This document shows positions 27,179-42,059 of a DNA stretch of 64,000 nt, piece after piece. How positions within the stretch are numbered: position 1 is the stretch's first letter; every line of letters begins with the position of its first letter. The position numbers and the translations under genes are program-made. The notes under the pieces were generated by a model. That model did not search any database, was not told where the DNA came from, and was given only the letters and a program-made list of their open reading frames with translations. Location of the stretch: positions 27,693 through 91,692 of the forward strand of contig JADGJC010000156.1 in the NCBI GenBank assembly GCA_027596075.1, read 5' to 3'. The DNA comes from Rhizophlyctis rosea (taxonomy: Eukaryota > Chytridiomycota > Chytridiomycetes > Rhizophlyctidales > Rhizophlyctidaceae).

Positions 27179-30149
27179 ATGGCAGACACCAAGGAGAAAG
27201 AGAAGGACGCTAACTTGCGTCAGCGCAAGGGGGAGAAGAAGCAGGAGACGGAGAAGGTCAAAGCTGTGACCGAAGTCCCTGCTCCTGTGGCCATTGTTCC
27301 TCTGGAAGAATCTGTAAGTCGGGCGCGTATTCCTAGGCCTTTGCAAGCTCATCACCGTAGTTGGCGCGAGTTCACCTTGAAGGTATCATAGGCCAAGACA
27401 AAGCCAAAGGTCACTCCTGCTCAGGCGGCTCAACTCGCGCAACTCAAATTGAAACAAAGAGAATGGGCCTACAACATTTCTCTTGTCGTTGTAACGATAC
27501 TTTCCTTCCTCACGCGAGTTTACCGGATCAATGAACCTGCTCAAGTGGTGTACGTGGGATTAACAGCTCAATCATCCACCTTCTCTGTTAACTCATGTCC
27601 GATGCTTTGCAGGTTCGACGAGGTTCACTTTGGAAAGTTCGCGTCATACTACCTGCGCCGTACATACTACTTCGATGTACACCCTCCACTGGGGAAACTC
27701 CTGTTGGCGGCAACGGGTTGGCTTGTTGGGTATGATGGACACTTCCTGTTCGATAAAATAGGAGACGATTACATTGAAAACAACGTCCCTTACGTTGCTT
27801 TGCGGATGACTCCTGCAACGGCTGGTGCATTGATTATTCCAGTCGTGTTCTTGACATTGAAGGAGATGGGAATGAGTGTGGCTGGAGCAACCTTCGCGGC
27901 ATTGCTTCTTGTGTTTGGTGTGTATCAATGAAGCGGGTTGCGGTTGGTGACGATGAAGAAGTTGACCGACTGTTCACTTTAGATAACGCCTTGATTGCTC
28001 AATCGCGTTTGATCCTGCTGGATAGTATGCTTACTTTCTTCGCCATTCTGTCCGTTTACACCTGGGTGAAGTTCTACAAGCAGCGCCATGTGTAAGTTTT
28101 GCAACCAGCGTCCATACATCGCTCGTGTATCTCACTCATATCTTGATAACAGGCCATTTACCTTCAAATGGTGGTTCTGGTTGTCGATGACTGGTGTGTC
28201 CTTGGCACTCACCACGGGGTAAGCTTCAAATATTTTGTTGGCCGTCTTCCGAAGTATGAAAACTGTAAAACTGATCTGACCCAATCTACAGTGTCAAGAT
28301 GGTTGGTCTTTTCACGGTTGCATGCGTTGGTATTGCGGTTCTTTTCGACTTGTGGGAACTATTGGACATCCGCCGTGGGCTCACAATGGTATGCCTCACG
28401 GAAATCATGTTCAACGAAGAATGAGATATGCTAATCATATACTTGAATGCAGCGTCAAGTTGGAAGACATTTTGCCGCGCGAGCATTGTGCTTGATTTTC
28501 TTGCCAATTGGCATCTATCTGTCATTCTTCTACATCCATTTCGCCATCCTCTCGTACAGTGGTCCGGGAGACGCTTTCCACACTCCTGCATTCCAAGCGG
28601 AATTGAAGGGAAGTTCCATGAATATCGGCACTCCAGGTATGCCCCACAGATCTTCATCTTATATCTTTCTTTCCGATTATCAAGCAGTTGCTGATTCGCC
28701 CCGTGAACCCTAGCAATCCCATACCATGCCAACATCACATTCAAGAACCGGGATCTGAAAGTATATCTACATTCTCATGGCGAACACTACCCGCTACGAT
28801 ATGACGATGGTCGTATCAGTAGTGAAGGACAACAAGTAACCGGTTACCCTCATCGTGACGCCAACAACTTCTGGGAGCTTCTTCCGGCCGAGCCAGAATT
28901 CGCCGGCGAGTCAGCCGAATACGAACTGGACGAAGAAGAGCAACTCAAAGGAATCCGATACCTCAAACATGGCGATCAAGTGCGTCTTCGTCACCCTAGA
29001 ACTGACTCGTACCTCATCACGCACGATGTTGCGTCCCCCTTGACCCCGACCCATATGGAGATGACTACCGTTAAGCTCGATGTCGCTAACAAGCGGTACA
29101 ATGAGACACTTTGGAAGGTTTTGTTGACGGAGGAAGATGATGACGCGGAGGGCGTCAAAGTGCGGGCGCGTCGGGGGCATTTGAAGCTTGTCAATGCGCA
29201 GCATAATGTGGCAGTGCACACTCATAAGGGAGTGTTGCCTGCGTGGGGTTTTGCGCAGAATGAGATCAACGGGAACAAGAATACCAAGGAACCGAAGAAC
29301 ATTTGGTTCGTGGATGAGGTTCAGCATCCTAGGATCGTAAATGGTGGGTGGAATCGTGTTCCAGATGTCGAATGTCGAATGTCGGGATTGTAGTTGACTG
29401 ATGGATCCTTCTGAATCTATACAGGTACCGAGGTCGGTGAGGAGGATGAATCCAAAAAGAAGAAACAGCCCGAGAAGAAGCTCTCCTTCCTCCAAAAGTT
29501 CTTCGAACTCCAATCCGTCATGATCAGCGCCAACGCCGGACTAGTCAAACCCCACCCATACTCCTCCACCCCCATCACCTGGCCCTTCGTCCTCCGCGGC
29601 ATCTCCTTCTGGGAAACCAAAGAAGGCCTCCGCCAAATCTACCTCCTCGGCAACCCTATCATCTGGTGGCCCGCAATCGTCGGCACCTTCATGTACGTCG
29701 CCATGTGGGTCCTCGACCGGATCTTCCTCCGTCGCGGCGTGGACGACTTCCGTCCTCCCGTTCGAAGATGGTGGGACCGCAGCATTGGGTTCGTCTTCCT
29801 TGCCTGGGCGTTACATTGGCTTCCGTTCTTCCTCTTCGAACGCAAACTCTTCTTACACCATTACCTGCCGAGTTTCATTTTCTCTGTCATGACTGCCGCA
29901 TTGGTGTTTGAGTTCATTGGACGGGTAGCGCTCCATGATGCGGCGAAGGTTGCCCTTCAGACTCCGATTACGGTTTGGATGAAGAGTCAGGGTGGGCCGG
30001 TGTATAATGCGGTGCTTGTGGCGTTTTTGGCGTGTGCGGTGGGGAGTTTTTGGTATTTTTCGCCGTTGACGTATGGGACGGGCTTCCCGGATGTGGAGGC
30101 TATTAGGGCGCATAAGTGGTTGACGAGTTGGGATTTGCAGCATGCGTAA
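27179..30149 (+). CDS. Dolichyl-phosphate-mannose protein mannosyltransferase (PMT)
   Basis: The product starts MADTKEKEKDANLRQRKG, a charged cytosolic tail, and then has the multi-spanning PMT fold of the ER membrane. The catalytic luminal loop reads VFDEVHFGKFASYYLRRTYY (across an intron) with the DE pair, then FDVHPPLGKLLL. Later come SRLILLDSMLTFF and MIR-repeat sequences: YLHSHGEHYPLRYDDG, HGDQVRLRHPRTDSYL and RRGHLKLVNAQHNVAVHTHK. The C-terminal helices include HWLPFFLFERKLFLHHYLPS. The enzyme adds the first O-linked mannose to Ser/Thr of secreted and wall proteins. Motifs mix features of the PMT1, PMT2 and PMT4 groups, so I do not assign a subfamily. Several small introns are inferred. 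Its products may include the Ser/Thr-rich secreted proteins encoded nearby. Confidence 0.93.
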
Positions 30150-31131: not shown

Positions 31132-31966
31132 TATATCTTGTTAATATGTTGGTAGAGGAGGCGTTTGAACTTGGTAAAGGTAGTTTTGTGAATGCAATTT
31201 CGAGGAGGAAGGTGATTATGAGAGCGTGGGAACCGGTTTTGTGGGGTGAAGTTATGACGTCTACACCCCACCGATCAGCCACCGACGAAGTCACCGCGTC
31301 ATCAGGGTGGTGTAAATGTGTCGCCAGGGTCCAGGCCAGGTCTCGACCACCTCAGTATCGAAAAAAGGACTTCAGAAGGACATGACAGAAGGGTCTATAA
31401 CAAGCATGTTAACTCTATCGTTCGGCGCTACTGGTTTTCTCATGTGGCAGGGAACGGCGCAACAACTCCAAGCGCAATTGTAGACGATGGTATGGGCAAG
31501 TCCTCTGACCGATGGATAAAAGCAGGTTGTGATCGACTATGAGACCCTTGCCAAATTGATGAGTGACCAATCGCGCGACCTGTTCCGTAGATGGGCCATC
31601 CACAGCATCCAGCGTTTCATGGAAAGCAATTCTTTCATTTATTCTCAGGCACATCAAAACCGCAACGGAATTCATACTCTGTCAACATGAAAGCTTGAAT
31701 AGCAGGGAGCTGCGAGAGCCCAATCCAACTCAACCACGCGATCGACCCCACCTGCCATTCGCCTGTGATTTTCAGACCCCTTGCAATCTAAAAATTCAAA
31801 TGATGCTTTAACATCCAACCACAAGCTGCCTCCGCCGCTGCATGCACAATTCACCTCCATCCGAGATCGCACCATTCCCACAAGATCTTTTTTAACCATT
31901 TTGTCTTACCCGTCTAATGGGCCATTCATATCCACACCATTCCTGGACATCGTTTATACTGTTCCT
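31132..31966. other. Intergenic, divergent promoter region of the receptor gene
   Basis: No gene is seen. The right end should contain the promoter and 5' UTR of the GH5-SBP-7TM gene. Confidence 0.45.
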
Positions 31967-34900
31967 ATGCATTTTCTGCAGTCAAATTCCATATGGCTCG
32001 GGCCAATCGCCATTTCAGTACTTTGCGCTGCGCTTGGGTATGCTTGTGAGATAACTGGGTTCTCTTGCACAGTGTGTAATGTCTCTTCCCTATAATTCAC
32101 TCATTCCACTTCGCAGGAGGTGACGGCAGAGTCCACCCTCGCGATGTACGTATGGGAGCGACGCTGTTACAGCCCTCAATTTTGCAGGTCGCCCCTCCCT
32201 AACCTCCACAAATCAAATGTAGTGGGACGGCAACAGCCCATGGGGAACAAACACCCTTCCACAACGTTCAGCTGTAGATGCCGCAATTGCCCACGGATTC
32301 AACACTCTCAGAGTGCCTATCGAATGGGTGCGTGTTAAGTGGTGACTTAGCACTTGGAATGCTTTGGAAGCATGCTGTTAAATCCCTACGCAGGAATGGA
32401 TCCAACCAACATTTTCGCAACCCCTCGACGAAAACGTCGCGGGTCCTCTCGACAGCCTCGTCAACTACATCACGTCAAATTCATCCCACTACGCAATCAT
32501 AACCCTGGAATCCAAATATCAGTTCATGGTATACACTGCGCCCAACATGGTCTCGTCAAATCGATCCGCAGCCCTCTGCGACCTCTGGACACGGCTTGCA
32601 GGTCGATACAAAAATCACCCCAATGTGATTTTTGAGATTGCAAATAAGCCATACATGAACTTCACGGCGGCGACGTGGAATAACCTGGCGAATAATGTCA
32701 TTGATGCCATTAGGTACAATGCGAGTGCGACTAGTCAGTTGATCATTGTACCGAGTGTTGGGGAGAGTATGGTGGATTGGTTCTTCCATCAGCATTTGAA
32801 TAGGGGGTTGCCTCCAGCTGAGGGTGAGTGCCAAACGATCAAATTCTTTCATACATTGACACTCAATAGGATTCAACCCACTATCCTCCTCTCAGTAATG
32901 CAAAACATCAACGACCCATACAACAACTTCGCCTATGGTTTCGAAGTACACCAAGACATGTGGAACAGCGGATGGGAAGAATGTACTGTCCCTACAACCA
33001 TCTTACGTCGACTCACGGTACCTATGTCATGGTTGAAGCTACATCAGAGGAAAGCGTTTTTGTTCTGGTGGACGAATAAGGCGAGCTGGCAGTGTGTTGC
33101 GATCATGAGGAGGGTTTTGACATTTTTGGCGCTCAATACGGATGTGTGGATTGGGAATTCGTATGGTGCGCCTGCTTGGTGGATTAATACTGGGGGTATG
33201 TGTGTTGTTGCGCCGTTTGGTTGGGTCAAAATACCATTGCGATTAAGCTTTTTTGGGTGTCGGGAGGATGCGTGAGAGCTAAGGATACAGGTCTCCAAGT
33301 GTTTCATATGGATGTAAAGCTGATCCTTACCGTTCTCCATACTTTTCCCAGCTGGCCCCACACCAAATCTCCAAGTTATCGACCAATTTGTAAACGGCAC
33401 ATTCTCAAACGACCTCGCAAACCTCCGAAACGACCCAAAAGCCGTAGACAAGGAGGGATACCCTTTGGACATCGATCCAGGTTCCATCACCCCTGATGTG
33501 TGGAATGTGAATCAGCAGATGGAATTCCTTATAGAGCACAGTATTTCCAATTCGTCCGTCTTGAACAACCCGATTGTTGTGTGGGATTATACGGGCAACC
33601 AGTATGAACCCAGCTGTGATGTGTTGCTGCATGCTATGATGGATTATGTTGCGTGGAGTAATGGGTCGGTGGCGATGGCTTATTATAGTATTAGGTATGG
33701 AGGTGGGGATGGAGATCAGTTGTTGGATGGGTCTTGGGCGTATGCGCCGAAACCTGGTTAGTCATTGCGTATCGAAAGGGAGGCGGTGGTCAAACCGTTT
33801 TCATTAACGAATTGATCCATCATGATTGTCAAATCTAGATATCGTCATCGACACCTTTGACAAAATCAGTTATCGCTACTCAGTGAATGACACAGTCGCA
33901 CTCTCGGGTTTCCTTACTGAATACAGTCAACAGACTGGAAGTGCATTCCCAGATAGGTTCATCCGACAGGTATGCATTTCCTCTTTCTCTCTCACAAAAT
34001 TTCCCACACCTCACCACCACCATCAACCAGACCATGTACCAATACAAATTCAACGACGAATGGCACGCGGCTCCTTACAGTAATTCTCTCCTTTACATGA
34101 TGTTCAACGTTACAACCTTTCGGGCACTAGACCTTCCCTTCCCCCCACCATTCAACCTCACCAAATCCCAATGGACATGGCCCCGCTTCGTCGACACGGT
34201 CCAAAAAATCAGCTCCTACATCTCTGTCCCCTTCTGGATGTCCTGCGGTTCCGGTAAAGACGACTTCCACATGGCCAACATCGCGCGTACATATGGTGGC
34301 AGCCTAATCAACACCGACGGCAAGTGTGCTCTCAACTCCCCTGCATTCATTCAAGCATTCAAGGAAGTTATCGTCCCGCTGTTTATGCCGCCGAATAACG
34401 CTACGCCCCTGCCGTGGAAATCGAACACTATTGCGGAAATTCAGGCTATGCCTATTGTGGATGATCCGTTAAGGTTTCCTGATTCGGCATTTGCGTATGA
34501 CGATAGTTATAATGGGAATCCTGCGAATACGATTGGGGCGCCGGACGTGTATAATGGGATTTGGTTCACTACGTCGAGTATTATTAAGAAGGAGAGTATT
34601 TGGAATACGGATGGTACGAAGGATTTGGCGGTTGGGTTGTATCCTGGTGAGAACATTTACTTTTTTGGTGGTCTGAAGTTCTAAACCGTTCTGACGTATG
34701 TCCATCATTTCCTGTCCTGCCAAAACAGGCGATTATACATGGCTAGGGGGAGCGGGGATGTTCATCAATCGGAATTCGTCAGTTCCCCATGATTCATGGG
34801 AGTTCATGACATTCCTTTACGACAACAGAAACAACGACTATATGCTCATGCTGTCGTACTTCAGTTCCAACCCGTCGGTGTTGAATGATGTTGCTGTTGA

Positions 34901-36995
34901 CCCGACATTGACGACTCAGTATCCTAATTTTTGGAGTATTGTGAATTTGCAGGTATGTCGGGGTTGGTGCTTGAAGTTTTGATCCTGCAACGATTGGCGA
35001 TTGACTTTTTCTTTGCTTGTACTTTTGTGTAGACTGTCTGGGCTGTGCCACGTTAGTGTCTTTTGGAAACTTTGCAATACAACATTTCGTTCTCTCCCGC
35101 TGACAGTCCTAATCATCAACCAGAGCGATACCCGTTAAGCAATTTGCCAGTTGAATCCCGCGTTTTGAAAAAGTACCCGGTAAAGTTCGTCACCCAATCA
35201 CCCGTTCCGACTCGCAACTTATCTCGGTCGTCCGCCACCCAACACTCATTTAGATCCGCATGCTCCTCGCCGAAACTCTCGTCAAAAACATCACCATCGA
35301 GGAAGAGGTTGATCGAGTATGCATTGCCTTGGACTACAGCATTCTGCATACTTGCGGAGTTGAGGACTTGGAACTCATTTCGCAAGGGTGCGGTAGGACC
35401 AGACAGGAGGTGTGGGAATTCGTGTATCGACGGTGGGATGAGAAGGGACAGTATTTGTGTCGTATTGATTATACTATTAATCCGCCAGGTGGGAATCTTT
35501 GAGGTTTACGGGATTTAGGAATTGTGGGATGGGTTCCGATTTTCGACTAACTCAAAATCTTTGCGCTTGGCGACAACGCAGATCCCGTGGTCTTGCCATG
35601 CCCATACATTCCGCATGGTAACAGTGCGGGTGTTGCGATTTACTTCTTTGCCGTATGCGCGATCGTCTTTCTTTGTGGATGCCTCTTTCTTCTCTTCCGA
35701 TGGCGGAAACGACCTGCGATTGCGTCTGCGTCTTATGAGCTTAGGTATGTATTGTACACACAGGCATGGTTGTATTCCATTCTTGCGCTCACATTTTACT
35801 GGATTAGTTCATTCATGGTTGCTGGTGCGATTGTTTCGAACTTCTTCCCGCTTTTGTCGGTTGGAGCACCTACAACGGGCAAATGTATCGGCAGAGTCTT
35901 TATGGTGGTTTTGGGATTCTCAATGTTGATTGGTGGATTGATTGTTCGATTGACTCAGTAAGCAGTGTCTTTCCCATCCGTGGAGCTGTCTCGAGTCGAT
36001 GAGGCGTTGCGGCATTGAATATATGAACCTCACTTACCCTTCCTCCGTCTCTTCTTTAGGATATTCACTATGTTGCACTATGGTAGGATGTATCGAAAAG
36101 GAACTGATTTGGCTGCCCTATCATGGCTGGTGGTCATTGTGCTGATCAATTTGGGACTGCTGGCTTGGTGGTAAGCTCCCCTGCATATCGGAGATACCGT
36201 TATCCAAGCGTTTTTTCCAACCTTTCACTGCGCAAATCAGGGCCTTATTCAGGAATCCCGGTTTGGAAGTGATGGATTTCACATTGCCTAACTATCCGTA
36301 TGACCACTACACTTGGCCGGACTGTTCTAATGGTTACAGTGCATCTATTGCTAGTCTGATGGTTGGGAATTCGATATTTGCTGTTTATGGGGTAAGTCAT
36401 GATTCTGCCAAACCTTGGGAATATCTTCCAATTGCAACCCTGATATCCTGAATTTGCATACGATATCCCTCTGCAGATGTGGTTCGCTATCCAAATCCAC
36501 ATGTACCACGGCAAATGCAGCTCAGTCATCAGGGGAGTTTCGTATTCCATTGTGTTCCTCTCCGTCATTCCTGTCCTTGGACTAGCCATCGGTGACCGGT
36601 TGAACAACCCTGGAACACGAGGTGGATTCCAATCGGCTTTGATCATTTTGGGAAGCGTCGGTGCCTGTCTTATTTATCTTGTTCCCAAGCTGCTACGATT
36701 AGACGAGGAGGAAGTGCCACCGGAAAAGCAGAATCAATATTCCTCCCGTTTGGCCTGCAATGAGACGGGGCCGGGTAAGGAAGGGGATTTGCCTATAGGG
36801 ATGAAGAAGAGTGGAAGTGTTGCCAGTGGCAATGGGAATGGGGGTATGCTGCGGAGAAGGAGCGGAAGTGGGGAGATTAGGAAGAGTGGCGGGAAGGCGG
36901 TTAGTATCGAGATGATTAGTAGTAAACCCATGTCTGTTGAGGAGGTTCGGCTTGAAAATGGGATGGAGAAGGCGGACGGAGAGGGCGGGTCTTGA
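31967..36995 (+). CDS. Class C GPCR-type receptor with pseudo-GH5 and solute-binding ectodomains
   Basis: One long multi-exon gene. (1) A signal peptide, MHFLQSNSIWLGPIAISVLC. (2) A GH5 cellulase-like domain, about 32120-33190: WDGNSPWGTN, AIAHGFNTLRVPIEW, GRYKNHPNVIFEIANKPYMN, INDPYNNFAYGFEVHQDMW, LALNTDVWIGNSYGAPAWW. The catalytic acid position (NEP) is NKP and the nucleophile region (TEFG) is FWWT. (3) An extracellular solute-binding domain, about 33350-35090: IVVWDYTGNQYEPSCDVLL, GSWAYAPKPDIVIDTFD, AMPIVDDPLRFPDSAFAYDD, TWLGGAGMFINRNSSVPHDS, WEFMTFLYDNRNNDYMLMLS. (4) A short Cys/Trp-containing linker. (5) Seven hydrophobic segments, 35610-36700, ending LVPKLLRL, like the PKxY end of class C TM7. 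(6) A Gly/Ser/Arg cytosolic tail. The GH5-SBP join (after WWINTG) and SBP internal joins are in phase; junctions in 34950-35590 are not resolved. Role as a sugar or cellulose sensor is inference. Confidence 0.85.
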
Positions 36996-37655: not shown

Positions 37656-39452
37656 ATGGCCGAGTCTCCCAACAATTCCACGGCCTTGACACTCAACGCC
37701 CAGTGCGACGACAATTCCCTCATGTGGGACCCAGACAGGTAAGTGTTAACAACGTCGTTTTGTTTACTCACAGTACTTGGTTATTTACTCCGGACGCTCG
37801 CTGCCTATATCCTTACAGAAACGTCTGGGACGACCTATCAGACCTCACACACGCACCTCACCATATTCAGGCCTGGGCCATTGCTGGCGCCGCCGCCGGA
37901 ATAGGTTTGTTTTCGATGTTTGCTTCCCCCCAATACGGGCGCTTTGTTGACACGAGAATCCCATTCAATTCATCAGCCGTCGTCATTTCGCTTATCACCA
38001 TTTTTGCGCACTTGAGAAATTATAACACGCGAAAGGAACAAGTATGGAAATATGCGGGCAATGCCGCACTTCTATGCAGTTTTGAAAATGGGCAACAGAG
38101 ACAAAATGGACTGACGGCCATGGCAATTCATCAAATCAGAAACAAATTGTGCGAATTCTCTTCATTGTGCCCGTCTATGCTATAATCTCGTTCCTTGGAT
38201 TCTACTACTATCGCTACGCCGTCTACTTCAACATTGGTGAGCACATGCACATTGAACGCACTTGCTCATTCCAATACATGTGAACCGTATGCTCATTAGT
38301 TTGTACACAGTGCGTGATGTTTATGAAGCATTTGTCATTTACTCCTTCTTTTCGTTGATTTTGCAATTCATGGGGAAGGTAGGATTTGCAACAAAGGAGG
38401 GTTCGGATGCTTCAAATGCTTTGTGAATGCTGATTAATTGCTTCTGCAGGATATCACGACGCAACATCTGTTGCTGTATGACAAGTCGATGATGTACCTT
38501 CCACCTCCCCTCGTGAGCATTGGCAATACCCCATCTTCTAACAAATCATAATTCTCATCAGTCCATTACCATTCCAGTGCTGCCATATTCCCTATAACCC
38601 ATCATCGCATACGTTCCTGAAGAACGTCAAGATATTGGTCATGCAGTATGTCTTGTTCCGGCCTTTGATGTCAATTGTAGCAATTGTCACGCAGGTAAGA
38701 GCGAACCCTCACTTCGATCAACGACCATTGCTCATGCGTACTCCACATAGAAATTCAACCGGTTTTGCCCGGAAAGCATGAGCCCGCAATACGCGCACTT
38801 TTGGTTCATGATTGTCAACTTCATCACAGTGACAACAGCCATGTACGGACTGTTTTTGCTCTACGTCACCGTGAAGGACCAAATTCACGACAGAGGACCA
38901 ACTGCCAAGGTAAAAAGCCGATGAGTTCCACATGAGGTCTTCAAATGTTGAATGGCGTGTCATTAAATCTGACCGTTACCCCAGTTCCTTGCCATCAAAG
39001 CTGTCATTTTCCTCACATTCTGGCAACAAATGCTCATCTCGGCCCTAGTTCACTTCGACGTCATCAAAGCAACAACCTACTGGACAAAAACCAACGTAGC
39101 GAACGGCGTCCAAGCATTCCTTATCTGCATTGAAATGGCCATCGCAGCCGTTGTCCATATTTGGGCATTCTCCGTAAAGGAGTACCGCGACCCGCAAGGG
39201 AAGCATACGAGTATTTTCAATGCGTTGGCGAGCGTGTTCTATCCTTTGGACATCTATCGGGAGTTTAGGGATGGGTTCAAGCATCTTGGGAGTGTGATGA
39301 GGAGGGGGGAGAGGAGTGAGGGTGGAAGTGGGAGGATATTGAGGGAAGAGGGGGATGAGATGGGGATGCAGCATTTGGTTACGTCTCAGCCTGGCAAATT
39401 GGATGATGAGCGGAGGAGTGGGTCGATGGATAATAGGATGACGAGGGGATGA
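37656..39452 (+). CDS. TMEM184 / organic solute transporter alpha family membrane protein
   Basis: The product starts MAESPNNSTALTLNAQCDDN (luminal, glycosylation-rich) and has about seven membrane helices spread over seven or eight exons. Family landmarks are IFAHLRNYNTRKEQRQIIRI (helix 2 boundary, read across an intron), VPVYAIISFLGFYYY, VRDVYEAFVIYSFFSL, LKNVKILVMQYVLFRPLMSI and KFLAIKAVIFLTFWQQMLIS. These match the Ostalpha/TMEM184 (DUF300) family. Members transport or regulate organic solutes at plasma or endomembranes; the fungal substrate is unknown. The C-terminal 90 residues are Gly/Arg/Glu-rich and cytosolic. It lies directly downstream of the receptor gene in the same direction, with 660 bp between. 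Confidence 0.9.
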
Positions 39453-39881
39453 GTTGGGTGAGTTGTTGTATGTAATTTTATTGAGTGTTATTTGTAGATT
39501 TGTATGATACTAAGAGAAATGTTATGTGTTTGTGTACACGTAAAGTGGAATGAGCAATAGTGCAAATATGGTTTTGTAAAAGTCGGGGCCCGCATTCAAC
39601 TTTCCAAATACCTAGGGATGCTTGTTTCGCAGATAACGTATTTGCAGAACGTCATTCCCACCGTCTTGGGCAGTTTTGATGGCCAGTGGGTGGCGCAGTC
39701 AGACCCACTGATGGGTTGTCTTGACCACCCCGCGAACGGCTGTGGGAACCACGCTTTTTCACCAGCATTTTCACTTTGACTACACTTTTTGTCGAACCGT
39801 TGTTATCTTCGCACGCTGCAAGTCATTGGAGTGAGCGTTGTGCGTTATATATTCGTGTTCAGGACGCCTTTCCGTGAGACA

Positions 39882-42059
39882 ATGACTTCACGACCACCGG
39901 CAAAGCGAAAGCGTATCACTGGTCCTCGGGACAAAGGAAGTGCCGTCATATACGAAGGCTCTTCTTCGTTGACTGTACACTCCCACCCTTCCTCCTCCTC
40001 CTCCTCTCGGCATCTTCCTAGCCCTATCCCTCACATCCACTTCTCCATACACCGCGACTTCATCCACCAAATATCAGATGAGCTTGTCCTCCACGTTTTT
40101 GGAAACCTCAGCCATAAAGACTTGGCCACAGCTGCTTTGGCAAGCAGAGAGTGGAGACGGGTTGCATCTGATAAACAGTTATGGAAGCAACTGTTTTTAC
40201 TTCGGTTTCCTCTCCTTCCCACCGTTTTGTATAATGGAAGTCTGTCCGTGCCTTTTGAGGGTATCAGGCAGTTAGGGCGTAGAACGCCGCTTTTGTCGAG
40301 TGATGTAGTTAAGGTGGTTGATGTGAGGCCGAGACGGAGAAGCGATTTTGCGGGGTCTATTATGAATGAGCGTGAGGTATGCACCGTTTGCGGTCCGGCG
40401 ATAGTCGGCGGTTACGGTTGTGCTGATGCTTATATGCAGGACTGGCGCTCTATGTATATTATCCAACATAACTGGGCTTCAGGCAATTGCCAGATTCTGG
40501 ACTTGAACCCTGTCCACCCCGCCATATCATCCCACTTTAACACCACCATGCCTTCCCCTTCTCCCACATATCATAATGCCCGTCCCACTGTTGCCTTTAC
40601 GAAGGATCTGATATTTACGGCAGTCTCTATGGACGGTATCCCGGAAGTGCGGATCTGGCGAGTGGCCGACCGCTCGTTTGCAGGAGTTTTGAGGAGTACG
40701 ATGTTTGGGTTTGGAGGTGTGTCAAATGCAGGTGGTGAGACTGGTGGAGTGGACGTGACAGCCATGTGTTTGGACGGGGCTGCCAATGGTGGGCAGGATG
40801 GGTCATGTCGGCTGTTGGTTGGGTACTCGAACGGTGCAGTAGCGCTGTTCCAGATAGCTTCTGGAGATGTGTTGGAGGAAGACGGCGATGCAGAAACGAT
40901 CCAACGCCCATGGGAAACAGCGGAACTCTTGAATTTTGCTCCACAGGGCGGCGACTCTCCCATTTTAGCTGCAGCCTTTTTGGGATCATTTCTAGTAGTT
41001 TGTACAGCCGATTTTAAGTTGTCATCATTCACCATCCTCACCTCACCACCAACATCACCCTCTCCCACCCCTTCAACACCAATCCAATACCTCCACACCG
41101 CTCAGCTCCTTCACACCCTCCGCAGCTACGTCTGTCACGCCCCAACAGACATCCAACTAATCCGCCACACACACTCCACATCGGGCCGGCACTCGATATT
41201 CGTTTCCTACCCGACACCACTATTTGGGGGCGGATGGGAGCTCGCGTTGCAGGAGATTGTGTTTGAAGGACCCAAGGTTTTGTCCAGTCGGAGTTATACA
41301 CCTGAGGTTGTGGTGCCTAGGAGTGGGTTGGGGATTGGGAGCGCCAATGGTCCTGGAACGTCGATTTGGTCCACTCCGCATTGGATACTTGCTAATTCGT
41401 GGGCGTATGCGGGCGGGTTTGGAGGAGGTGGTGGTGGGGGAGTTGGAATGGGGGGTGTTGAGGGGTGGGGACAGATCACGCAAGTCACTTCGGTGAAGTT
41501 TGCGCCGCCATATTTGGTTGCTGCGTGTGGGGATAATAGGATTCGTGTGTATCTTTATGTGAGGATTCATGGTGGGGAGGGTGGGAAGAGTGGGGATGGG
41601 GGAGAGACGGGTGGGTGGAGTGGGGGGAGAAGGAAGCGAAGAAGGAAGTTAGTGCATGTTGCGACGTTGTATGCTCATACTGCTGCGGTTACGGCTGTTG
41701 ATGTTGATTCGAATGGGAAGATGGTTACGTGTGGGAGGGATGGGATCAAGATTTGGGAGTTGCCGAGTGTTTTTCGGAGGAGGGGGGAGAGGATGACGAT
41801 GGAGGATGACGTCACACAGTTGGGTATGGAGTCTCATTTAGCAGTTGATGATGGGGATGTAGAGTGGTTTATGAGGAATATGCCGGAGGAGCCTATTGTT
41901 ACTGTGTCAATGAGGAAGAGTGGGGAGGGGGAGGAGGGGAATGCGGTTGTGGGAAGCAAGAGAGATGTGGTTGAGTGGGTTGGGTTTGATGAAGGGAAGA
42001 TTGTTGGGGTTAGTGGTGGGGATGCGGGTGTTAGGATCTTTTCATTCTTTGAGGAGTAG
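39882..42059 (+). CDS. F-box / WD40-repeat protein
   Basis: Intronless gene; the ATG at 39882 gives MTSRPPAKRKRITGPRDKGS, about 725 residues. An F-box spans about residues 56-105 (ISDELVLHVFGNLSHKDLAT, ALASREWRRVASDKQLWKQL). Degenerate WD40 blades follow: EVRIWRVADRSFAG, LLVGYSNGAVALFQIASGD, VTSVKFAPPYLVAACGDNR, AVTAVDVDSNGKMVTCGRDG ending IKIWEL, and a last blade ending GDAGVRIFSF. Gly-rich loops (near 41415-41460 and 41570-41640) interrupt the propeller. The protein should act as a substrate receptor of an SCF ubiquitin ligase. I cannot name a closer orthologue. An in-frame extension to 39789 lacks an ATG. Confidence 0.88.
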   Translation: MTSRPPAKRKRITGPRDKGSAVIYEGSSSLTVHSHPSSSSSSRHLPSPIPHIHFSIHRDFIHQISDELVLHVFGNLSHKDLATAALASREWRRVASDKQLWKQLFLLRFPLLPTVLYNGSLSVPFEGIRQLGRRTPLLSSDVVKVVDVRPRRRSDFAGSIMNEREVCTVCGPAIVGGYGCADAYMQDWRSMYIIQHNWASGNCQILDLNPVHPAISSHFNTTMPSPSPTYHNARPTVAFTKDLIFTAVSMDGIPEVRIWRVADRSFAGVLRSTMFGFGGVSNAGGETGGVDVTAMCLDGAANGGQDGSCRLLVGYSNGAVALFQIASGDVLEEDGDAETIQRPWETAELLNFAPQGGDSPILAAAFLGSFLVVCTADFKLSSFTILTSPPTSPSPTPSTPIQYLHTAQLLHTLRSYVCHAPTDIQLIRHTHSTSGRHSIFVSYPTPLFGGGWELALQEIVFEGPKVLSSRSYTPEVVVPRSGLGIGSANGPGTSIWSTPHWILANSWAYAGGFGGGGGGGVGMGGVEGWGQITQVTSVKFAPPYLVAACGDNRIRVYLYVRIHGGEGGKSGDGGETGGWSGGRRKRRRKLVHVATLYAHTAAVTAVDVDSNGKMVTCGRDGIKIWELPSVFRRRGERMTMEDDVTQLGMESHLAVDDGDVEWFMRNMPEEPIVTVSMRKSGEGEEGNAVVGSKRDVVEWVGFDEGKIVGVSGGDAGVRIFSFFEE

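Follow-up and report, generated by a model that had tools for sequence, protein, structure and literature searches.

A predicted class C receptor gene of Rhizophlyctis rosea joining a catalytically dead GH5 domain to a bacterial-type solute-binding domain

Introduction

Metazoan class C receptors, such as mGluR and CaSR, carry a type I ANF flytrap ahead of the seven-transmembrane (7TM) domain and, in most members, a nine-cysteine domain. To our knowledge, how saprotrophic and zoosporic fungi detect insoluble polymers is still an open question.

Early-diverging fungi possess class C receptors whose binding domains are of bacterial type, in agreement with the sequence-only reading of the locus described here. 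According to the available text of PMC3251606, the glutamate-family GPCRs of Allomyces and Spizellomyces bear SBP_bac_1, OpuAC, LysR or PBP_like_2 domains. Of about 100 receptors in anaerobic gut fungi, almost half carry a bacterial sugar-type solute-binding protein (SBP) domain ahead of the class C 7TM, and about 30% have a pectin-lyase fold as an enzyme-like head (available text of PMC5168858).

The R. rosea gene resembles the former group in joining a periplasmic-binding-protein ectodomain to a 7tm_3 domain and the latter in combining an SBP with a class C 7TM. It differs from both in its outermost part, a glycoside hydrolase family 5 (GH5) domain: no GH5 head is reported in the available part of PMC5168858, and no cellulase domain is described for the Allomyces and Spizellomyces receptors, since neither “cellulase” nor “glycosyl hydrolase” occurs in that of PMC3251606. 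A fusion of GH5 with a class C receptor was likewise not found in the open-licence PMC literature searched, as far as its text was available. SBP-class C receptors are thus known in chytrids and gut fungi, while the pseudo-GH5 head appears to be new.

Gene structure and domain order

The window is the whole stretch of 64,000 nucleotides that was analyzed. On its + strand, the sequence from 31917 (or 31967) to 36995 reads as one predicted 16-exon gene encoding a protein of about 1,275 amino acids. The order of the parts is leader, GH5, diverged type II SBP, cysteine stalk and class C 7TM. The features are as follows.

31917..32037, +, exon 1 (favoured model), coding for the hydrophobic leader and perhaps the first GH5 strand (enumeration of 5′ ends)
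31917..32003, +, hydrophobic leader (favoured model)
32010..33401, +, pseudo-cellulase GH5 domain, residues ~32-345, exons 1-6 (PF00150; C-terminal limit set by aligning HK097 and paralogs)
32646..32648, +, Lys170 at the acid/base Glu site of NEP: NKP, and SKP in HK097 (alignment)
33066..33068, +, Trp286 at the nucleophile Glu site: FWW, and NWW in HK097 (alignment)
33196..33351, +, junction intron, 156 nt, GTATGT...TCCCAG, phase 1, with a CTGAT branch-like site (splice reading)
33402..33560, +, GH5-SBP linker, exon 6 (HK097 alignment)
33561..35352, +, diverged type II solute-binding (flytrap) domain, residues ~399-845, exons 6-12 (profile search with paralogs)
35353..35613, +, cysteine-bearing stalk, resembling those of SBP-7TM paralogs in this genome
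35629..36695, +, class C seven-helix domain, residues 907-1176 (7tm_3)
36696..36995, +, cytosolic tail and stop, with VSIxMIxSKPM common to HK097 (alignment)

The spliced path is free of stops through all the named parts and across all 16 exons, and Pfam matches both GH5 and 7tm_3 on the joined 1,275-aa protein. One predicted GH5-SBP-7TM gene, read earlier as a single path, is in this way confirmed at the sequence level.

The 5′ end is less firm. There are 251 possible 5′ ends with one or two introns, and because ten of them tie for the top splice score, exon 1 is the least certain exon of the model. ATG 31917 is favoured over ATG 31967 since its leader is followed by PFQYFALRLGG, which resembles a first GH5 strand; ATG 31967 reads another frame of the same stretch. 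Pfam GH5 scores do not discriminate between the two starts (84.7 bits for 31917 and 85.2 bits for 31967). After the enumeration, the start at 31967 is retained as an alternative only.

The GH5 head

The GH5 domain matches PF00150 with 85.2 bits (cut-off 23.5, E 6.8e-24; 84.7 bits in the joined protein), and a PDB search with this part retrieves cellulases at 4.8e-30. We take the head to be subfamily 5-like. It is homologous across nearly the whole domain to GH5 subfamily 5-type cellulases (PDB 5hnn; six intact paralogs), but in contrast to them it has lost both catalytic glutamates and is joined to a receptor. The acid/base and nucleophile positions are occupied by K/K and W/W, respectively, in this receptor and in HK097_009272, a protein from another R. 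rosea genome, while the three full paralogs used for comparison have E at both. When the catalytic residues were read at 12 of the 20 GH5 places listed for the genome, both glutamates were found in six paralogs. The description of this domain as a dead cellulase is therefore upheld in both receptors. The histidine and tyrosine of the HQY motif are also replaced in the receptor GH5.

Three active paralogs agree at 117 invariant positions, of which the domain retains 56, the catalytic ones being among those lost, so that cellulose binding is unreadable from sequence. One hundred enzyme-invariant columns are present in both receptors. The two receptors both keep 38 of these and have changed to the same new residue in 30; in 22 the new residues differ, and in 10 one receptor keeps the original. 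The changes in common may represent a conserved new surface. The canonical GH5 cleft is largely remodelled, and cellulose need not then be the ligand.

The solute-binding domain

The SBP domain is considerably diverged. The window's SBP part alone has no Pfam match, and no SBP family exceeds the cut-off in the whole protein either; the SBP of HK097 also falls below threshold (22.6 bits versus a cut-off of 26). A Pfam search of the spliced protein therefore returns two of the three parts anticipated, GH5 and 7tm_3, but not the SBP. A single-sequence search of the SBP part found only 5iai at 0.39, a profile of the two receptors (A2) found no SBP in the PDB, and NCBIfam gives no SBP in the three filed proteins. 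In the genome, PF13416 has no match, and PF01547 is matched 5 times (E up to 0.1), never at the receptor gene.

The bacterial-type SBP of the sequence-only reading is nevertheless recovered when HK097 and three paralogs are added to the profile (A5), which matches 5ci5 at 5.3e-10, 4rya at 1.6e-7 and further solved SBPs. The A5 relatives are family-1 SBPs, several of them named for sugars, including CbpB (7x0i, 1.9e-5) and a cellobiose-binding protein (8bfy, 0.0094). CbpB presumably binds cello-oligosaccharides. SBP_bac_1 is matched alone in three of the five profile members, the window's member not being among them. Recognition as a diverged SBP is thus obtained only in a profile together with paralogs. 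An AlphaFold run of HK097_009272 (P0001) with P0002 and P0003 gave an unusable model (pLDDT 30.9, pTM 0.22).

The seven-helix domain

The 7tm_3 match reaches 66.7 bits (cut-off 33.5, E 3.2e-18) over model positions 5-251 of 251, and that of HK097 reaches 44.8 bits. A hydropathy scan, which is not a topology program, gives nine segments over threshold between residues 910 and 1176, and seven after merging of two overlapping pairs. We take a Cys pair joining helix 3 to loop 2 and a PK motif in helix 7 to be class C marks. C992, C1081 and PK are identical in the two receptors, and the two cysteines may form the disulfide. The seven class C-like helices with a PK motif are thereby borne out. Metazoan class C receptors share the flytrap and class C 7TM plan, but neither their type I ANF flytrap nor their nine-cysteine domain was matched by Pfam across the whole protein. 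Other fungal class C members also have no nine-cysteine domain, according to the available text of PMC3251606.

The second receptor and the paralogs

The decisive observation is that the same domain order recurs in HK097_009272, with a dead GH5, an SBP and a class C 7TM. Its public record is named hypothetical protein/cellulase, and it was not met in the accessible part of the literature found. Its filed model differs in that the N-terminus, the first helices and 22 residues of the GH5 are missing. All proteins retrieved in the searches carried the name R. rosea. Identity between the two receptors is 132/241 (55%) in GH5, 255/423 (60%) in SBP and 108/207 (52%) in 7TM; in BLAST pieces, it is 53% for the part from GH5 through the stalk and 46% for the 7TM with the tail. 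With GH5 about as conserved as SBP and 7TM, the domain is kept and not decaying.

The genome contains at least 65 exon-level 7tm_3 matches at no fewer than 46 places, and at least 26 PF00150 matches at no fewer than 20 places, both lists being lower bounds. Among the listed matches, only contig C64 has the two on one strand within 10 kb. SBP-class C paralogs occur at loci C79, C69 and C618, where tblastn matches cover SBP, stalk and 7TM pieces.

On contig C266, 7tm_3 and PF00150 lie close together on opposite strands, the Pfam matches being 1.5 kb and the open frames about 0.6 kb apart. The C266 GH5 has neither glutamate, ends in a hydrophobic C-terminus and adjoins another SBP-class C receptor gene. 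In an 11-row GH5 tree, the two receptor GH5s stand apart from nine paralogs on a long branch, and C266 pairs with C264 (80/81). The tree does not join the two kinds of GH5 that have lost both glutamates, so that descent from one such ancestor was considered and rejected, separate losses being likelier.

Possible function

The reading that we prefer, with a probability of about 0.5, is that of a fungal SBP-type class C GPCR carrying an additional, catalytically dead GH5 at its outer end, which acts as a glycan-binding or ligand-presenting head. The SBP would close on a soluble saccharide and drive the 7TM, in the manner of flytraps elsewhere in class C. No longer hydrolytic, the GH5 would serve as the non-catalytic head, either tethering the receptor to plant-wall β-glucan or handing its oligosaccharides to the SBP. 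The conserved GH5 of the second receptor, the sugar-binding relatives of the SBP family, the C266 GH5 beside a further receptor gene and the reported cellulose-decomposing habit of R. rosea speak for this reading; the remodelled cleft, the filed split of the gene and an SBP recognised only with paralogs speak against it. The sequence-only reading, in which the GH5 captures cellulose or its fragments for direct sensing by a zoospore or hypha, stays hypothetical in this part. The signal could pass via G proteins, and Gα genes are present in the genome (22 exon-level matches).

More tentatively, Rhizophlyctis may on two occasions have turned dead GH5s into non-catalytic glycan heads for class C receptors, fused here and as a membrane-anchored partner beside the SBP-class C receptor on C266, insoluble cellulose being read through a GPCR.

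The GH5 might also bind another glycan or be structural. It is rather unlikely that the domain is a structural head only (a spacer, dimerisation or protein-binding module) which binds no glycan and leaves sensing to the SBP alone. The replacement of both glutamates and of the HQY histidine and tyrosine would suit such a head, as would the 56/117 invariant positions kept, but its identity is near that of SBP and 7TM, and the 30 positions with the same new residue suggest a kept function, although a protein interface would look alike.

A head re-aimed at a different ligand (a protein, or some other glycan of plant, fungal or bacterial origin) instead of cellulose is regarded as improbable. The long branch of the receptor GH5s and the many enzyme positions replaced alike are in keeping with it, whereas the closest solved structures belong to cellulases, and the part of the literature available describes the host as a cellulose decomposer.

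Integrity of the gene model

In the filed annotation of this sequence, the gene is broken within the SBP into HDV00_002489, ending at 34684, and HDV00_002490, beginning at 34842. That these are two neighbouring genes wrongly joined here is very improbable. An in-frame ATG at 35260, upstream of the 7TM part and with a mildly hydrophobic start (1.95), would allow a second gene, but the filed split cuts within a domain, omits the GDYTWLGGAG stretch kept in HK097 and makes HDV00_002489 begin in the middle of GH5; HK097_009272 is continuous over it.

At the GH5-SBP junction, the splice is identical in P0003, a filed protein from the same sequence, whose annotation basis is unknown, and HK097_009272 (P0001) runs uninterrupted across the intron position. 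Both agree with the sequence-only reading that these are not two neighbouring genes. Its clean intron also stands, at 33196-33351 in phase 1, but not quite as a boundary of domains: it seems to separate GH5 strand 8 from a stretch aligning with the last GH5 helix, and not GH5 from SBP. The linker is less conserved than the domains, sharing 21 of 49 aligned residues with HK097 (residues 336-384 in 1,260-aa numbering). As a control for a separate start, unspliced ATGs in the SBP frame were read over 33050-33760. Peak hydropathy is ≤1.24 in all except ATG 33198, which reaches 1.87 but whose frame meets a stop near 33275.

A degenerate pseudogene, to which the lost catalytic residues might point, is scarcely credible and was rejected, given 16 exons without a stop and GH5, SBP and 7TM domains 52-60% identical to HK097.

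Conclusions

Cellulose sensing by the predicted receptor is plausible, and its sequence makes the protein a good candidate for sensing plant-wall sugars directly. In a soil fungus reported to decompose cellulose, a cellulase otherwise conserved but with its catalytic residues removed forms the outer domain of a receptor that also has a sugar-type flytrap and a core for signalling, an example of an enzyme turned receptor part. With it, the question of whether a GPCR reads the plant wall becomes directly testable with one ectodomain.

Gene Model and Neighbourhood

The receptor gene lies on contig C64 of a 44.1 Mb assembly in 634 contigs, among neighbours that look ordinary.

28707-30146: protein O-mannosyltransferase (MIR, PMT_4TMC)
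31917 (or 31967)-36995, +: receptor, with leader, dead GH5, diverged solute-binding domain (SBP), stalk and class C seven-helix part (7TM)
38973-39449: Ost-alpha family protein
39780-42056: F-box/WD40 protein

The hand-built model has 16 exons and encodes 1,275 residues from ATG 31917, or 1,260 from ATG 31967, with no internal stops; the first exon is uncertain. The 15 introns range from 61 to 156 nt, every one with GT-AG ends, and a single one (32824-32895) could be read through in frame. HDV00_002489 and HDV00_002490, both filed for Rhizophlyctis rosea, match the window exactly in every exon they have in common with it, except for residues at exon edges. Between them they hide the architecture, being cut inside the SBP.

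One Gene or Two

That GH5, SBP and 7TM belong to one gene is given a probability of about 94%. The filed alternative of two genes is rejected, as its cut falls within the SBP: the first product enters the intron 34647-34728 and the second begins at an internal Met. Four observations support a single gene and bear out the sequence-only reading, which had held that these are not two neighbouring genes. First, HK097_009272, a protein of 1,084 residues encoded by a second genome under the name R. rosea, aligns with the receptor from GH5 through SBP and stalk as a single piece (53%, 820 columns), a second piece covering 7TM and tail (46%, 310 columns). Identities over aligned columns are 132/241 in GH5, 255/423 in SBP and 108/207 in 7TM. 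The filed HK097 model has three gaps, at the initial GH5 strands, over a stretch of 22 GH5 residues and at the opening helices, all put down to faulty annotation. Second, the filed annotation of the window uses the same GH5-SBP splice as the hand-built model, despite the gene split. Third, GH5 most likely continues beyond that intron: past strand 8, HK097 reads YWGLTVEPANVDILINFAKKT, similar to the ending of an active paralog (WGSYMYSVEP...ILNKFF), and the window counterpart of this stretch begins at exon 6. The splice proposed earlier is supported, but the intron most likely precedes the last GH5 helix instead of marking the domain boundary; the Pfam GH5 model stops just short of it. Fourth, no usable leader in the SBP frame was found among the unspliced ATGs of 33050-33760, where the best, 33198 (hydropathy 1.87), hits a stop and the others reach at most 1.24. 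An in-frame ATG at 35260, with a mildly hydrophobic start, lies upstream of the 7TM part.

Domain Recognition

Pfam scores GH5 at 85.2 bits (cut-off 23.5) and 7tm_3 at 66.7 bits (cut-off 33.5), and the joined protein matches both families. Among solved structures the first part comes closest to cellulases, for instance 5hnn (4.8e-30), and the SBP is followed by seven hydrophobic segments (nine windows, two overlapping pairs being merged).

The middle part, previously read as a bacterial-type SBP, is recognised only in company. Alone it has no Pfam match and retrieves 5iai at 0.39 among solved structures; genome searches with PF13416 and PF01547 gave no match at the gene, and a profile of both receptors found no solved SBP. 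In HK097 the same part scores 22.6 bits for SBP_bac_1, under the cut-off of 26. Adding parts of three SBP-7TM paralogs from the window's genome gives a five-member profile that finds solved SBPs, including 5ci5 (5.3e-10), a sorbitol SBP (1.6e-7) and CbpB (1.9e-5), many of them with sugar names. SBP_bac_1 is matched singly by three of the five members, the window's not among them. From these matches the middle part is taken as a diverged type II SBP, probably of the sugar kind.

Loss of Catalysis

Catalytic residues were read at 12 of at least 20 GH5 places in the genome. Ten, the receptor's own among them, are subfamily 5-like; the other two, on C55 and C113, are GH5 of other kinds and look intact. 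Both glutamates are retained at six places (C520, C60, C79, C314, C231, C115), and the acid/base alone is lost, with the nucleophile kept, at C482 (NAP; L057, G000:C482:23500-27500) and C264 (DQP). The C264 GH5 (L058, G000:C264:1500-5000) ends in a hydrophobic tail. Both are lost at C266 and in the receptor (NKP, FWW); HK097 has SKP and NWW, so the "dead cellulase" of the first description holds in both receptors.

There are 100 columns that both receptors cover and in which three full active paralogs do not vary. Of these, 38 are kept by both receptors, 30 carry the same replacement in both, 22 are replaced by a different residue in each, and 10 are kept by one. In the HQY motif His has become E and Tyr has become H in both receptors, and the HNY histidine is absent under either of two alignments. 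This pattern points to a GH5 remodelled and then kept.

Relatives and Distribution

The genome holds at least 65 exon-level 7tm_3 matches. Weak relatives of the receptor's SBP, stalk and 7TM lie on C79, C618 and C69; among the matches listed, PF00150 is found on neither C618 nor C69, and that on C79 is about 137 kb off. The SBP-7TM paralogs of C79 and C618 (L061, L062) have a leader-like start and an extra N-terminal piece ahead of the SBP. Their tails and that of HK097 contain a CPTC motif (CPTCH, CPTCG), which the window receptor is without.

Protein searches gave one match with the whole receptor (5,894 candidates), one with the profile of both receptors (7,671) and three with an SBP-7TM profile (4,730), all named R. 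rosea, a result which, with shared 5-residue words and length limits required, does not establish absence elsewhere. The architecture was compared across two genomes. The difference of about 47% between HK097 and the window receptor suggests that the name R. rosea may span distant lineages.

A second association of the two domains occurs on C266.

L065 (G000:C266:27500-34500), ~5984-4233, -: double-dead GH5 (NSP, GKW)
L065, up to ~3668, +: SBP-7TM (class C receptor gene)

The genes are convergent, about 1.5 kb apart between Pfam matches and 0.6 kb between open frames. Among the ten subfamily 5-like places, only this one and the receptor, the two with both glutamates lost, have a 7tm_3 match, of those listed, within 10 kb. 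With so few cases the arrangement may be chance, and the two GH5 domains do not group in the GH5 tree. The C266 GH5 opens with a leader-like stretch, and its C-terminus, which is hydrophobic (...RRWVVGRWWWWVWIGVLVVWGTV), could anchor it in the membrane; the pair is possibly an in-trans counterpart of the fused receptor.

Proposed Working and Significance

Class C receptor signalling is triggered by closing of the flytrap on its ligand. Here a probably sugar-type flytrap would close and signal, and the non-catalytic cellulase head could grip a chain without cleaving it. Glycan binding by the head is given roughly even odds; cellulose is the likeliest glycan, though not the sole candidate. G-alpha genes are present in the genome. 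R. rosea is reported to degrade biomass and to decompose cellulose (PMC6690862, PMC6373445).

Bacterial-type binding domains on class C receptors of early-diverging fungi, mentioned in the sequence-only reading, have indeed been described. According to PMC5168858, the SBP-class C type makes up almost half of about 100 receptors in gut fungi, and pectin-lyase folds occur in about 30%; PMC3251606 adds Allomyces and Spizellomyces. A literature search among open-licence PMC papers found no GH5-class C fusion, and the receptor is therefore regarded as joining an SBP-class C core of known type to a pseudo-enzyme head that appears new. Databases already contained it unrecognised, entered as a "cellulase" for one genome and split into two hypothetical proteins for the other, and other multi-domain receptors of chytrids may be hidden by similarly split gene models.
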